From Candidatus Altimarinota bacterium (GTDB lineage: Bacteria; Patescibacteriota; Gracilibacteria; JANQMV01): 64,000 bases of DNA. The translations under genes were made by a program, and so were the position numbers. This document shows, one piece after another, positions 21,469-30,083 of the stretch. The notes under the pieces are model-generated. The model had not been told where the DNA came from. It worked only from the letters and a program-made list of their open reading frames with translations, and searched no databases. The stretch spans positions 1-64,000 of the forward strand of contig JANQMV010000050.1 of the NCBI GenBank assembly GCA_028279865.1. Direction: 5' to 3'. How positions within the stretch are numbered: the stretch's first letter is position 1; each line of letters starts with the position of its first letter.

Positions 21469-21666
21469 ACGATCTGGATTGATGTATTGCTCCCAGTGTT
21501 TTTCTGCTAAAGGATTTGGAATATTTTATCTTTAAAGCATAAAAAAGTAAGAACCTTTTGTTTTATTATAAAATCAATTTTTGATTTAATAAACGTAAAA
21601 TGATTTTAAAAAACATCGTTGTCGTTTAAAATAAACAAAAATATACTTAGAATTACTGTATTCAAA

Positions 21667-23865
21667 ATGCTAAAAATTAAGTTTCAACTTCTTACAAGTT
21701 TTGTTTTTGTGTTTTTGTCTGGTGCTTTTTTTGTGCCAAAAACTTTAGCTGCTACCTATAACTATAACCCTTCCGGAGCAGGTAGCTTTAATTTTTCACA
21801 ACCGGGAATTAACACTGTCCGTGCTTGTAATTTAGATGGTATTTGTAATAGTACAACCTTTTATATTGATAATGCTGCACCAAATTGCGGGAGTATAACT
21901 CAGCAAGTTTTGCCCGGAGGTTCTGTTGAGGTGACAGTGCCTTGCTCTGATGCGCACTCCGGTTGTGTGCAGAATGTCTATAAACAGACTTATTCTGCAA
22001 ACGGAAATAAAAGTATTACAATTAGTGACAAAGTCGGTTATACAAGAAATTGTTCTTTTTCCGTTACTGCCGTTGATAAGACACCGCCTAACTGTGGGAC
22101 AATTACGAAAATACCGACAAGCTGGACGAGCGGTTATGTAACCGCAACAGTGCAATGCGTGGGCTCTGATTGCCAAAGACCTAATTATAGTACTACATTT
22201 ACTGCAAATGGTACGAAAAACATAACGATACAAGATCATACCGGCAACTCAAGAAGTTGTGCTATTTCCGTTTCCAATATTGATAGATATGCGCCAAGCT
22301 GTGGTGCGGTGAGTCGTAGTCCCTCCTCATGGACATCTGGCAATGTTTTTGCGGCATTAAGTTGTTATGACACGGGAGGATCGGGTTGCCAACAATCGTC
22401 TTATGGATCAACTTTTTATTCAAATGGTGCGAAGTATGTGACGATTAGGGATTATGCTGGAAACAGTAGAACTTGTGGTATTTCTGTTTCTAACATTGAT
22501 AAAACAATGCCGGTTTGTTCAAGAACACTCATTCCGAGTTTTTGGACTAATACTGATGTGACAGCTGTGGCAAGCTGCAGTGATACACCATCTGGCTGTC
22601 AGCAATCGGTACAAAGTCGTTTGGTTAGTTCAAACCAGACGGTCCCATTTAATATTCGAGATCGTGCAAACAACACGACTTCTTGTAATGTAAATGTTTG
22701 GAATATTGATAAACAGAGACCAACGTGTACAACTTCTTTTTTAACAACAATTAATTCTCTTGGTTGGTCTAAAGAAGCGGTGGTTGCTCAGGCTAAATGC
22801 AGTGATACAGGTAATTCTAATTGTAAAAGCGGTCAGAATTTAACTACAACGATTACAAAGCATAATTCAAACCACACTTTTAGTGTTTCAGATAATGCTA
22901 ACAATACTAATACTTGTACAACAAGTACTGTTAAAATTGATCGAGATTCGCCAAAATGTGATTTTGAGGGGACGGGTTGGGTGACTTTACCTGCCAATGT
23001 TACCCCAAACTGTAACGATACTGTTGTGCAGACTTCAAACAATGGTGTTTCTGGTTGTAAAGCTGTCGAAGATTTTGATATTGAACGAGTCTCGGAAATA
23101 TCAAAGGTTAAAGTAGTCGATAATGCTGATAATGTGTCTTATTGTAAGGAGGAGGATTTAATGGTTCATTATGTCGAAATTAGAGGAACACAAGGAGGTG
23201 AAACCAATTCTGCTTTGAAGCAGACTCTGGCTAATAATATCAAGCAAAATGTGGCTGATTTAACTAGAAACGAATTGCCAAATTCAACTAATACAACTCT
23301 AAATTATAATTTAAATAATGGGACAATTGCCTATTATCAGGGTGATGTCCGTCTGAATGCTTTTGAAGTCAGTGGTAAGAAAACAATTATTGTTGAGAAT
23401 GGAAGTTTGACTTTGAATGGTAATGTCACTTATGACACAAATAGTATTTTGGGCATAATTGTGCTGGGGACTGCTAATAATGGCAATGTTACAATCTCAG
23501 CAAATGTTGACACTGTTCAAGCAATTCTTTTTGCAGAAGGAAAACTGATTAGTGAGGATCAAGATAGTGCGACCCAGCTTTATTGGAAAGGTAGTTTGAT
23601 TACGGATAATACAATTGGAGGGCATACACAAAATCCTCAAAAATGTTCCAACAAAACGACAAACTGTAATTCAAGCCAATCAAGAACCGATGATCTTAAT
23701 TACTTTAGAAGCTATCATCATTCTATTGCAGGTGCTGTTTCTTCAAGTGATCCGCAAAAAAGCAATGCTCCTACTATCATAGAATATGATTCAATGGTTC
23801 AGCAAAATACTCCATATGGGTTTGAAATGTCAGGAGAGTTTTCCCTTCAGGAAATTATTAATTAA
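21667..23865 (+). CDS. Secreted protein with tandem Cys-containing Ig-like repeats
   Basis: Signal peptide; repeated ~70-75 aa units (DKTPPNCGTITKIPTSWTSGYVTATVQC..., DRYAPSCGAVSRSPSSWTSGNVFAALSC..., DKTMPVCSRTLIPSFWTNTDVTAVASC...). Track start at 21619 is TTG; ATG at 21667 precedes the signal peptide. Confidence 0.75.
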   Translation: MLKIKFQLLTSFVFVFLSGAFFVPKTLAATYNYNPSGAGSFNFSQPGINTVRACNLDGICNSTTFYIDNAAPNCGSITQQVLPGGSVEVTVPCSDAHSGCVQNVYKQTYSANGNKSITISDKVGYTRNCSFSVTAVDKTPPNCGTITKIPTSWTSGYVTATVQCVGSDCQRPNYSTTFTANGTKNITIQDHTGNSRSCAISVSNIDRYAPSCGAVSRSPSSWTSGNVFAALSCYDTGGSGCQQSSYGSTFYSNGAKYVTIRDYAGNSRTCGISVSNIDKTMPVCSRTLIPSFWTNTDVTAVASCSDTPSGCQQSVQSRLVSSNQTVPFNIRDRANNTTSCNVNVWNIDKQRPTCTTSFLTTINSLGWSKEAVVAQAKCSDTGNSNCKSGQNLTTTITKHNSNHTFSVSDNANNTNTCTTSTVKIDRDSPKCDFEGTGWVTLPANVTPNCNDTVVQTSNNGVSGCKAVEDFDIERVSEISKVKVVDNADNVSYCKEEDLMVHYVEIRGTQGGETNSALKQTLANNIKQNVADLTRNELPNSTNTTLNYNLNNGTIAYYQGDVRLNAFEVSGKKTIIVENGSLTLNGNVTYDTNSILGIIVLGTANNGNVTISANVDTVQAILFAEGKLISEDQDSATQLYWKGSLITDNTIGGHTQNPQKCSNKTTNCNSSQSRTDDLNYFRSYHHSIAGAVSSSDPQKSNAPTIIEYDSMVQQNTPYGFEMSGEFSLQEIIN

Positions 23866-25717: not shown

Positions 25718-27331
25718 ATGTTGAAAAAAAGTATTTGGAGCTTAGGGATAACCTTGAGTTTGGTTATATTTTCTTGCTTTACAGTTGATCAGGCTTTTGC
25801 AGAAGGTGATGAAAATCTTGCATTAGAAGAAACCGGTACGGGGGAGGTTTTATTGGAGTTTGAACCGGAAGTTGTGCCGGCGCTTATTCCTGTTATCTCG
25901 GGTGATGATTTTATAGAAATAAATAAAAAATCTCTTTTTGATGCGGCTGATTCATCTTTACTTTTAGATGTGGAGGGTACGACTTATATTTGGAATTTTG
26001 GAGACGGTAAACCCGACCAAGTTGGTAAAGAAATTATTTACGATTTCGCAGAAACAGGATCATATACTGTAACTTTAAAAATCAAACAAGGTGATATTGA
26101 AAAGCAAGTTCAAAAAAATGTTTTTGTCTACAATAAAAAAGCGGTTTTGATTACAGACTCTGCGTTTGTTCAAAATGATGTTAGTTCAGAAGAAGGGGCA
26201 AATCCGGAAAATCAGAAGCTTGCTATCGCTGATCAAGCGGCCCGTCAAGGTGTATGGCTTAGTACAATCATTATAGAAGATGAAGAAACAGCTTTTTTAG
26301 CTGAAGAAAAGGTTATTCAACAGCTTACGCAAAAGGCGGATATTGTGAGCGATGCAGACTATCTGATTTTTTATACGAAGACATCTTTAGGCTTGCAAGG
26401 TTTTGCACGTTATTGGCAGAACCTTGAAGAAGAAAATAAATTTGATCTTAATAAAAAGTCTCTAATAAAAATTACAGATGATAGCTTGGAAATTACCTCC
26501 AACCTTACTCAACAATCTTTTAATGTCATTAAACCAAATTTTATTTTAGTAACACGCAAAGAAGCAATTAATCCTATTTTTGAATTACAAGATAATAGTA
26601 AAATTTTGCAGGTGCTTGATAGTCGAGCTGTTGGCTATAAGGTTGTTGATGAAAGAAGCGAACGATCCAAATTATTTGTTTTATCTACAATTATTACAGG
26701 TTTTATCGCTCAGGGAATTCCACCTAATACAATTTATTTGATTTTGGCATTTCCTTTTGCAGCCTTTTTTGTTGCTTTTGCTCGGCAGTTTGTAGGTTTA
26801 TCAACTTTTGGGGTTTATACTCCCTTGATGTTGGTAATTTCATTTTTGATTTTGGGAGTAAATCTTGGTTTGAGTATTTTATTTGTCGTGATTTTGATTA
26901 GTTATACTTTACGGAAAATTTTTAATAAAGTTGATTTGCTTTATATCCCTCGAGTTAGCTTGATGTTTTCATTTATTAGTTTGTCTTTTTTAATTACAAT
27001 CTGGTTTATTTTGAAGTTCAGTACGCCGGTTTCGATTACTTTGGCAATTTTTCCAATGCTGGTGATGTCAACAATGTCGGAAAAATTTGTTTCTGTGCAG
27101 TCTGAAGAAGGTATGGGTACTGCTATGTTTAGTGCATTTGAAACGATTATTATTGCTGTTTTCTCTTATTATTTTTTGATTTGGTCTTCATTTGCAGATT
27201 TGCTGATGTCTATGCCCGAACTAATTTTATTGCCTTTAATTGGAAATTTTATTTTGGGTAAATTTTCAGGATTGCGTCTGACAGAATATTTTAGGTTTCG
27301 TATGTTGTTTAAGGAAAATATTGAAGAATAA
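25718..27331 (+). CDS. PKD-domain + 7TM (7TM-transglutaminase-like) membrane protein
   Basis: PKD motif YIWNFGDGKPDQVGKEIIYDFAETGSYTVTLKI; C-terminal ~7 hydrophobic helices with FVGLSTFGVYTPLMLVISFL...LLYIPRVSLMFSF typical of the 7TM module usually fused to inactive transglutaminase. Confidence 0.75.
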   Translation: MLKKSIWSLGITLSLVIFSCFTVDQAFAEGDENLALEETGTGEVLLEFEPEVVPALIPVISGDDFIEINKKSLFDAADSSLLLDVEGTTYIWNFGDGKPDQVGKEIIYDFAETGSYTVTLKIKQGDIEKQVQKNVFVYNKKAVLITDSAFVQNDVSSEEGANPENQKLAIADQAARQGVWLSTIIIEDEETAFLAEEKVIQQLTQKADIVSDADYLIFYTKTSLGLQGFARYWQNLEEENKFDLNKKSLIKITDDSLEITSNLTQQSFNVIKPNFILVTRKEAINPIFELQDNSKILQVLDSRAVGYKVVDERSERSKLFVLSTIITGFIAQGIPPNTIYLILAFPFAAFFVAFARQFVGLSTFGVYTPLMLVISFLILGVNLGLSILFVVILISYTLRKIFNKVDLLYIPRVSLMFSFISLSFLITIWFILKFSTPVSITLAIFPMLVMSTMSEKFVSVQSEEGMGTAMFSAFETIIIAVFSYYFLIWSSFADLLMSMPELILLPLIGNFILGKFSGLRLTEYFRFRMLFKENIEE

Positions 27332-27392: not shown

Positions 27393-27743
27393 ATGGAAAT
27401 TACAATTTATCAGTTGCTGACACCATTATTTGCAATTTTGATGATACTCAAAGGTATTTCACGCTTTAAGCGTGGAGAAATGAGTATACGAAAGTTTATT
27501 CTTTGGGTTTTAGTCTGGGGAGGCATTTCAACCTTAGCTCTTTTTCCGCAATTTGTTAAGATCGCAGCAGATTTGACAGGTCTTGAAAGCGGAATTAATG
27601 CTTTAATTTTTTTTGGTTTTATTTTTTTGTTCTACATTGTTTTTCGTTTGTTTATCATTGTCGAACATTTGGAGAGGGAAATCACAGAAATAGTGCGGAA
27701 AAAAGCGATTGAGGACTTTAAGCAACAAGAAGGGTTAAAATAA
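27393..27743 (+). CDS. DUF2304 family membrane protein
   Basis: YQLLTPLFAILMILKGISRFKRGEMSIRKFILWVLVWGGISTLALFP. Confidence 0.75.
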   Translation: MEITIYQLLTPLFAILMILKGISRFKRGEMSIRKFILWVLVWGGISTLALFPQFVKIAADLTGLESGINALIFFGFIFLFYIVFRLFIIVEHLEREITEIVRKKAIEDFKQQEGLK

Positions 27744-27764: not shown

Positions 27765-30083
27765 TTGTTTGATTTTTTAAAAACAGCAAAGGGAATCTTA
27801 GGAATTAATGCAAGAAATCATTTGTATGTTTCGCGTTATAACTCCAGAGAAGCCAAAAAATTTGCAGATAATAAGTTGTATACGAAAAGGTTTTTGCAAT
27901 CTCGTCATATTGGAGTTGCAAAACTTTATCATGTAATTAAACAGCACAAAGAACTACAAAATATTGATTTAAAAACACTGCCTAAAAGCTTTGTAATTAA
28001 ACCCAACAGAGGCTATGGAGGTGAGGGAATTCTGGTGATTAATAAGAAAAAGGGAAGCAAGTTTGTTTCTGTAAGCGGTGAAAAGTATACGCATGAAGAA
28101 ATTTTTTATCACTGTATTGATATTTTGGATGGTAAATATGCGATCTCAGGTACGCATGATCAGGTAATTATCGAAGAGTTTTTGGAGCCTCATGTTGATT
28201 TTAACAATATTATTCCAGAAGGTTTGCCCGATCTACGTATTTTAGTTTTTAACTATGTTCCGATTATCGGAATGTTGCGTGTGCCTACGAAAGAATCACA
28301 TGGAAAAGCAAATTTACACTTAGGGGCAATTGGTATTGGGATTGATATGGGAACGGGTAAAACGACTTATGGCATAAAACACAATCGCTATATACGTAAA
28401 TTCGCAAATGGTGAACCTATCGCAAATTTTTTGATTCCACATTGGAATGAAATTTTGGAAATGTCGAGTCGCATTCAGCAAATATCTAAGATTGGTTACT
28501 TAGCGGTAGATTTAGCGATTACGAAGACGGGCGTCAAAGTTTTGGAGGTAAATGCAAGAGCAGGTCTTTCTGTTCAGGTTTGTAATCGCGCTTTTTTGAA
28601 GGCTCGCCTTGAAAAGGTTGCAGATCTAAAGGTAGTCAATCCCGCTCAAGGAGTCGAGGTCGCAAAAACACTGTTTTCGAATAAGGTACCTGTTAGAGAA
28701 GAAATTGAACTTAAACCTGTGATTGGGCTTTATGAACCTGTGCTACCTCTTGGAAAGCAAAATCAAGAAGTAATTGCAAAAATTAATCCGCATGGGACTC
28801 ATAATTTAATTGATAAAAACCTAGCGGAAGGAGAGAAAAAGATTTTAGAAATTATGTTGAAAAAGAAAAGAATCAAGCTCACTTTTAAAAAAGTTGATCT
28901 GAGCCAACAAGATTACAAAATTGTTTTGGCAGGTAAATATTTAGGAGATTATTTGCTTGATTTTAGAAAACCTTTTCCTCTTATTGGTAAAAAAATCTCC
29001 AAACAGGAAATAAAAATGCTGGAAAATTTTGACGAAAAGATTACGGAAATAGATAGTAAAATTCATATTTTATCTGCTCTTAAACCGCTTAACTTACAAG
29101 AAGAAAAAACAGCTTTTTTAAATAATCCGAATTTTTCACCACAGTTTATTTATAAATCGCCAAAAACGGATTTTACTACTTTAATGCGGGAACTGGATAA
29201 GTTGCCTAATGAAATCAATCATCCGCTTTTTCCTTTGTATAAGAAAAAGGTTAGAGAAATTAAAAATAAAATAGGTTTGGTTGGCAGTTTGAACAAACCA
29301 ATTTTTACTGATTATTCCAGTCGCTTGTATGGGAATGCTGATCAGGCACTTTATCATCAAGCTTTAGCTGTAATTAAAAAGACTAAATTGCAAGAGGATG
29401 AAAGCGTACTTTTAAAATTTAATGAGAGTGTTGCACAGCTAGAGAGTTTCTTGAAAAAAAATAATTTATCTCATTGGAAGATTAAAATTTTGGAAGATGC
29501 TCCCACAGACATGCAAGTTAACAAAAACAATACAATTTTTATACGCAAAAACAGTGAATTTACAGCAAATAGACTGGCTGCTTTAATTACGCATGAAATT
29601 GAGACACATATTTACAGATTTGAAAATGGTAAAGCACATCCTTTTGGTCTGCTTAAGAGAGGTACTGCCGGTTATTTGACAACAGAGGAAGGATTGGCTG
29701 TGTATAATCAAAACAAACTTGATTTGCCTTTCGGACAAAAAGTTATTTGGCCGGCACTAAATGTAGTGGCTTGCTATCATGGCATGCGTAATTCATTTTT
29801 GGATTTGTTTCATTTACTTAAAAGAGATTTTAAGTTGAGTGATCAAATTGCTTGGAAACTTTGCTTGAAAATCAAGCGTGGTCTTTATGACACGAGCAAA
29901 AAATTGGCTTTTACAAAAGATATTGTTTATTTCAAAGGGGAGAAATTGGTTGAAAAATATTTAAGCAATTCAGCAAACAAATTGGAAGATTTGTATATTG
30001 GAAAAATTGGCATTGATGATTTAAAGATTTTAAAGGATTTTCAAGATTTTAAGGTAAAATATTTGCCAGAGCGAAAGGGGTAA
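27765..30083 (+). CDS. Fusion of RimK-like ATP-grasp (alpha-L-glutamate ligase-like) and DUF1704/MATCAP-like metallopeptidase
   Basis: ATP-grasp: FVIKPNRGYGGEGILVI...VIIEEFLEPH...VLEVNARAGLSVQVCNRA; DUF1704: ITHEIETHIYRFENG (HExxxH) and TTEEGLAVYNQ. Confidence 0.85.
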   Translation: MFDFLKTAKGILGINARNHLYVSRYNSREAKKFADNKLYTKRFLQSRHIGVAKLYHVIKQHKELQNIDLKTLPKSFVIKPNRGYGGEGILVINKKKGSKFVSVSGEKYTHEEIFYHCIDILDGKYAISGTHDQVIIEEFLEPHVDFNNIIPEGLPDLRILVFNYVPIIGMLRVPTKESHGKANLHLGAIGIGIDMGTGKTTYGIKHNRYIRKFANGEPIANFLIPHWNEILEMSSRIQQISKIGYLAVDLAITKTGVKVLEVNARAGLSVQVCNRAFLKARLEKVADLKVVNPAQGVEVAKTLFSNKVPVREEIELKPVIGLYEPVLPLGKQNQEVIAKINPHGTHNLIDKNLAEGEKKILEIMLKKKRIKLTFKKVDLSQQDYKIVLAGKYLGDYLLDFRKPFPLIGKKISKQEIKMLENFDEKITEIDSKIHILSALKPLNLQEEKTAFLNNPNFSPQFIYKSPKTDFTTLMRELDKLPNEINHPLFPLYKKKVREIKNKIGLVGSLNKPIFTDYSSRLYGNADQALYHQALAVIKKTKLQEDESVLLKFNESVAQLESFLKKNNLSHWKIKILEDAPTDMQVNKNNTIFIRKNSEFTANRLAALITHEIETHIYRFENGKAHPFGLLKRGTAGYLTTEEGLAVYNQNKLDLPFGQKVIWPALNVVACYHGMRNSFLDLFHLLKRDFKLSDQIAWKLCLKIKRGLYDTSKKLAFTKDIVYFKGEKLVEKYLSNSANKLEDLYIGKIGIDDLKILKDFQDFKVKYLPERKG

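Follow-up and report, generated by a model that had tools for sequence, protein, structure and literature searches.

The window, by which we mean the whole stretch of DNA analysed (64,000 nucleotides), belongs to a source genome of 1.48 Mb in 59 contigs. On its forward strand, a gene for an RloB-like membrane protein is followed by a small gene and then by one long reading frame in which a ligase and a peptidase are joined. The features are:

25718–27331, forward strand: RloB-like membrane protein of 537 aa with a signal peptide, a PKD/Ig-like domain, an alpha/beta domain and TM helices (PF14402, by Pfam)
27323–27328, forward strand: codons GAA GAA for the C-terminal Glu-Glu of the RloB-like protein, the proposed acceptor and substrate of the fusion enzyme
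27393–27743, forward strand: DUF2304 small membrane protein, between the RloB-like and fusion genes (PF10066, E 3e-22)
27765–30083, forward strand: fusion gene of 772 aa (ATP-grasp ligase, degenerate retropepsin and MATCAP metallopeptidase), a single ORF kept across the class
27789–28664, forward strand: ATP-grasp ligase domain of RloC/RimK/LysX-ArgX type, residues ~9–300 (PF14397, TIGR02291, VIA)
27999–28001, forward strand: ligase K79
28509–28553, forward strand: ligase metal/ATP residues D249, E261 and N263
28710–29000, forward strand: degenerate retropepsin-like domain (RloA/RimB, PF05618-type), residues ~316–412 (hhalign)
29031–30047, forward strand: predicted MATCAP/DUF1704 metallocarboxypeptidase domain, residues ~423–761 (PF08014; 7z5g)
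29592–29609, forward strand: HEIETH metal-binding motif, residues 610–615, with H610, E611 and H615
29685–29693, forward strand: EEG motif with the third metal ligand, E642

The fusion frame starts at a TTG codon, preceded at 5 nt by a Shine-Dalgarno-like ACAGG, and stays open for 772 codons; a promoter scan gave no excess over chance. The enzyme identities of both halves are well supported. Residues 17–285 match PF14397 (ATPgrasp_ST) in Pfam with an E value of 1.7e-61 and 208.3 bits against a cut-off of 31.4, and residues 456–761 match PF08014 (MATCAP) with 5.6e-40 and 137.9 bits against a cut-off of 27. The nearest NCBIfam family for the ligase half is TIGR02291 (rimK_rel_E_lig, RloC-type, alpha-L-glutamate ligase-like), though its 255.6 bits lie under the cut-off of 314.2; TIGR02421 (QEGLA, flavohemoglobin expression-modulating) is matched at 158.1 bits, below its cut-off of 338.65. 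The AlphaFold model of the fusion protein has a mean pLDDT of 89.4 and a pTM of 0.53, with the relative placement of the domains uncertain. When this model was compared by Foldseek and VIA, residues 436–772 aligned with human MATCAP (7z5g) over 280 positions at Z 25.3 and an rmsd of 2.7, and residues 11–291 matched ArgX:LysW (Z 18.0), RimK (Z 17.6) and RimK:RpsF (16.4). The Pfam matches, the motifs and these folds bear out the preliminary description, which had read from the letters an ATP-grasp amidoligase fused to a DUF1704 domain with HEIETH. The ligase half probably adds amino acids and the MATCAP half probably removes them.

The fusion is a family trait, widespread in tiny, mostly uncultured bacteria. 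The search covered 60 genomes of the class. A match was obtained in 49, and both halves are encoded in 47, in most of these by a single ORF of 770–840 aa and in a few by split or frameshifted genes. The genomes compared are mostly metagenome-assembled, and in some relatives TGA is read as an amino acid. Named relatives belong to Gracilibacteria, Peregrinibacteria and Peribacteria; close copies also occur in Magasanikbacteria and Uhrbacteria, and the fusion is present in many more public assemblies. Neither chance nor an assembly artefact thus accounts for it, and restriction to a single assembly, which had been named as grounds for doubt, gives way to a spread over the whole class and beyond. 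No relatives were found in viral contigs. Four fusions (L073, L080, L082 and L083) from Magasanikbacteria, Uhrbacteria and a Parcubacteria-labelled bin are 44–49 % identical to that of the window, which suggests horizontal transfer between patescibacterial classes. In three loci from two families (L036, L050 and L069; cluster 33), the gene immediately 3′ of the fusion is a second one of ATP-grasp-like type, which by eye resembles RimK.

The catalytic residues, the loss of which had been given as the other reason for doubt, are kept in both halves. Among 77 distinct fused proteins the HExxxH motif, the third-ligand Glu (E642) and G643 are invariant, and K79, D249, E261, N263 and R265 of the ligase are kept in 76. 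In the one remaining protein (L047, genome G008) the ligase is missing its lysine, its metal ligands and its glycine loop, and the peptidase is intact. That protein lends something to the idea that only one half acts and the other serves as a regulatory pseudo-enzyme, an idea which the conservation of both active sites in practically every other member makes very improbable.

About 100 residues between the two halves, on which the preliminary description was silent, gave no direct Pfam match in the window protein, and the relic there was found only through profile comparison. In hhalign, the middle region of the fused proteins matches the intact retropepsin domains of other Patescibacteria with a probability of 99.5 % (P 2e-22), against 0.1–0.2 % for control regions. 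These intact domains in turn reach 96.5 % against RloA and 45.8 bits against PF05618, where some of them exceed the cut-off. The fused middle domain reaches only 15 % against RloA directly, and its homology to PF05618 is therefore established by transitivity. Some of the intact domains match the structure 2pma at E 2e-4; for Legionella RloA, too, 2pma is the top hit in the PDB. The structure search with the full-length model has no retropepsin among the matches listed, the list being filled by the other two domains. At the position of the catalytic DTGA, the window protein reads INPHG, and the motif is lost in most fused proteins.

Elsewhere in Patescibacteria the same ligase occurs in proteins of ~425–525 aa, with KIDTGA and (V/I)IGR(K/R)(D/N)L..FLVD in the C-terminal domain. 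Across the wider phylum, most ligase loci lack MATCAP; in other cases it is encoded elsewhere in the genome, or by a gene of its own that lies beside that of the ligase or overlaps it (L153, L154, L157, L158 and L160). The coexistence of separate, adjacent and fused forms supports a functional linkage of the two activities. Since the same ligase elsewhere bears an intact aspartic protease and no fused MATCAP, the eraser seems to have changed in the fusion system: the retropepsin would have decayed here, with a fused MATCAP taking its place. A stand-alone RloA-type protease is missing from the 60 class genomes, none of which gave a PF05618 match. Two further proteins adjoining RloB, of 921 aa (L167:4408–7173) and 854 aa (L168:3218–5782), combine ATP-grasp, an intact retropepsin and an additional C-terminal region, which in the former is a second ATP-grasp domain.

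The constant companion of the fusion is the RloB-like protein. That of the window matches PF14402 (7TM_transglut) at E 1.2e-25 and PKD_4 at E 3.5e-9 in Pfam; its structure model has a pLDDT of 81, and PKD domains were the clear matches in its structure search. Transglut_i_TM has no match in this protein, and the PKD domain stands there instead. Among the 60 class genomes searched, PF14402 occurs in 45 of the 47 that have both halves and in none that lacks them. In 22 of 41 loci RloB is the gene immediately 5′ of the fusion, and the partnership persists where the two genes are far apart in the genome. The intervening DUF2304 gene of the window did not turn up at this position in the other loci. 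Further upstream, at 21619–23865 on the forward strand, the window encodes an apparently secreted protein of 748 aa in which SNIDKTxPxC segments recur and which has no match in Pfam; no tandem repeats were found at 21.5–24 kb.

The window's RloB ends in FKENIEE, and in such tails the last two residues are nearly constant and the others variable. RloB termini were compared across 173 lineages sorted by MATCAP linkage and the state of the DTG motif. Where MATCAP is linked and the DTG motif is lost, 81 of 85 lineages end in -EE, the remainder in QE, QE, NE and EEV, such that Glu stands at −1 in 84 and at −2 in 82. None of the 80 lineages with an intact DTG and no linked MATCAP ends in this way, nor does any of the five with a separate adjacent MATCAP and an intact DTG(A). 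Two fused proteins with DTGI are accompanied by an RloB ending in -EE, as is L162, in which DTG is lost and MATCAP lies nearby on the other strand. The background of -EE is 7 in 416 other ORFs. On the ligase tree, a minimum of one change is required at −1 and three at −2, compared with 32–46 at each position from −3 to −12. The association of -EE with MATCAP goes back to few independent origins (7–9 changes), and phylogenetic matched-pair tests, underpowered with so few events, were all concordant in direction and non-significant.

The codons of the tail could alternatively serve as the Shine-Dalgarno sequence of the downstream fusion gene, or reflect shared ancestry without selection. The frequent position of RloB directly upstream would fit, GAGGAG is Shine-Dalgarno-like, and the core of that sequence occurs in 40 of 96 -EE ends. 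Nevertheless, the commonest form is GAAGAA (59 of the 96), followed by GAGGAA (16), GAAGAG (11) and GAGGAG (10), and all three stops are used; this use of every synonymous pair and stop argues that selection acts on the amino acids, not on a ribosome-binding site. The fusion genomes also have 19 RloB genes that are unlinked and complete at the C-terminus: 18 end in -EE and the other, in G008, in -EEV. Adjoining tail positions moreover turn over 10–40 times more often than the last two. A Shine-Dalgarno origin was rejected, and we find this whole explanation hardly credible.

The lineage ending in -EEV (L047 and L174, both of genome G008) is the only one of the 85 that does not end in Glu, and it is also the only one with a dead ligase. 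A tail of this kind beside an intact peptidase is reminiscent of the encoded Tyr of alpha-tubulin. The distribution of charges in the loops and tail suggests that the RloB terminus is cytosolic, where the enzyme itself has to be.

Taken together, we lean slightly towards a bifunctional writer and eraser acting on the conserved C-terminal Glu-Glu of RloB, with both the substrate and the activities predicted. The ATP-grasp half would use ATP to activate a C-terminal carboxylate and add one or more amino acids to it, L-glutamate being the likeliest; the MATCAP half would be a metal-dependent carboxypeptidase that cuts the added residues back. Their shared substrate would most likely be the -Glu-Glu end, predicted to be cytosolic, of the co-encoded RloB-like protein. 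An encoded Glu-Glu primer may be needed, since trimming can reach the encoded end. A signal from the envelope, sensed by the external PKD domain of RloB, could be coupled to the modification state of the tail, and the physiological role is perhaps, by analogy, envelope or osmotic homeostasis. In Pseudomonas, systems of the RloB/RloC type are linked with osmotic stress, biofilm and tolerance of antibiotics.

There are precedents for such chemistry. RimK extends the C-terminus of RpsF with Glu, and RimB removes glutamates (PMC12239564). Loss of rloB or rloC in Pseudomonas rescues the loss of the proteases (PMC12239564), which is consistent with a ligase product that needs to be restrained. MATCAP enzymes are carboxypeptidases and deglutamylases by experiment: the human TMCPs shorten glutamate chains and also take off the final residue, for which a penultimate Glu is required, and the EEG motif has been described for KIAA0895L (PMC10499314).

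Alternatively, the two halves may make and trim poly-alpha-glutamate or a different acidic peptide, free or bound to a carrier, with RloB sensing or exporting it and -EE acting only as a docking signal for MATCAP or for the relic. RimK also makes free poly-glutamate, RloA cuts chains of at least 8 Glu, and Pseudomonas secretes RloA but keeps RloC in the cytosol (PMC12239564). This last point suggests that the Pseudomonas system handles a polymer across the membrane instead of a cytosolic tail. It counts against our proposal, as do the few independent origins of the -EE/MATCAP association and the five lineages that lack -EE beside an adjacent MATCAP. RloB, as a multi-TM protein with an external domain, would suit the role of sensor or exporter of a polymer. 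A mere docking signal accords poorly with two conserved terminal residues behind a spacer of free length (8–26 residues from membrane to end), as expected of an enzyme that acts on a terminus, nor does it lead one to expect that the ligase-dead lineage is altered exactly at that terminus. We regard the polymer as rather unlikely, while giving it some weight.

Other substrates, such as ribosomal protein S6, which RimK modifies, or a cell-wall peptide, would leave the -EE tail unrelated to the enzyme. In their favour, the ligase is RimK-like, and PF14397 bears the name "sugar-transfer associated". The S6 of this genome ends in AEDIDL and was set aside as an obvious -EE substrate. The strict co-occurrence with RloB also speaks against substrates of this kind, no recurrent cell-wall gene was recognised near the fusion, and we hold them improbable. 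The preliminary description had envisaged that a terminal amino acid is reversibly added to and removed from a peptide or cell-wall substrate. The chemistry is plausible and still the best reading; the substrate named with it is unsupported, and the evidence favours instead the C-terminal Glu-Glu of the RloB-like protein, whose gene is the second one upstream.

The wider form of our proposal is a bacterial counterpart of the tubulin-tail cycle in one polypeptide, with reversible editing of -EE on an RloB-like sensor, an aspartic endoprotease exchanged for a metallo-exopeptidase as eraser, and the tail fixed as Glu-Glu; we judge it evenly balanced between right and wrong. The literature search returned no account of DUF1704 with ATP-grasp or of an RloB tail, no named substrate for systems of the RloB/RloC type and no role for bacterial MATCAP proteins. 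The conserved Glu-Glu terminus that accompanies the ligase-peptidase is a concrete substrate candidate which can be tested by mass spectrometry. If the proposal is true, the ligase/carboxypeptidase logic of tubulin tails is present in bacteria, and a natural swap of eraser enzymes has taken place inside one system.

A pairing of DUF1704 with ligases seems to be more general. Elsewhere in the same genome (G000, contig C27; L197:5211–8560), a stand-alone DUF1704 gene is flanked by an ATP-grasp ligase on one side and an N-formylglutamate amidohydrolase on the other, and on a Photobacterium megaplasmid (L195) GshB adjoins an FGase-DUF1704 fusion. These stand-alone DUF1704/QEGLA loci share the pairing with ATP-grasp, but involve different ligase families, have an added N-formylglutamate amidohydrolase domain or gene, and contain no recognised RloB. 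With MATCAP/TMCP and TTL/TTLL of eukaryotes, the fusion has in common the peptidase family and its metal site, an opposing ligase and an acidic tail as the likely substrate. It differs in that both predicted activities reside in one bacterial polypeptide, no tubulin is involved, and the ligase is of RloC/RimK type and not TTL proper.

The preliminary description did not draw the link to the known polyglutamate systems. The RimK-RimB pair for RpsF polyglutamylation resembles the fusion in its ATP-grasp fold (VIA Z 16–18 to RimK) and in a peptidase opposing a ligase that acts on C-termini, but has separate genes, RpsF as its substrate and an aspartic protease as its eraser. The Rlo system of Pseudomonas and Legionella (RloA retropepsin, RloB 7TM, RloC ATP-grasp) shares with it a homologous ligase (PF14397/TIGR02291-like) and a PF14402 7TM partner; the RloA-type peptidase, here a relic, and the logic of ligase versus peptidase are common to both. 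In contrast to Rlo, the retropepsin is fused to the ligase and has decayed, an active RloA-type aspartic protease (PF05618, DTG) is lacking, MATCAP is fused as the apparent eraser, and RloB ends in a conserved -EE and bears a PKD domain in place of the inactive transglutaminase (PF14400 in Legionella RloB). The fusion would descend from a system of the Rlo/RimK-RimB kind in which the aspartic polyglutamate protease decayed and the fused exopeptidase took over, and we class it as a variant of that kind with a changed eraser.
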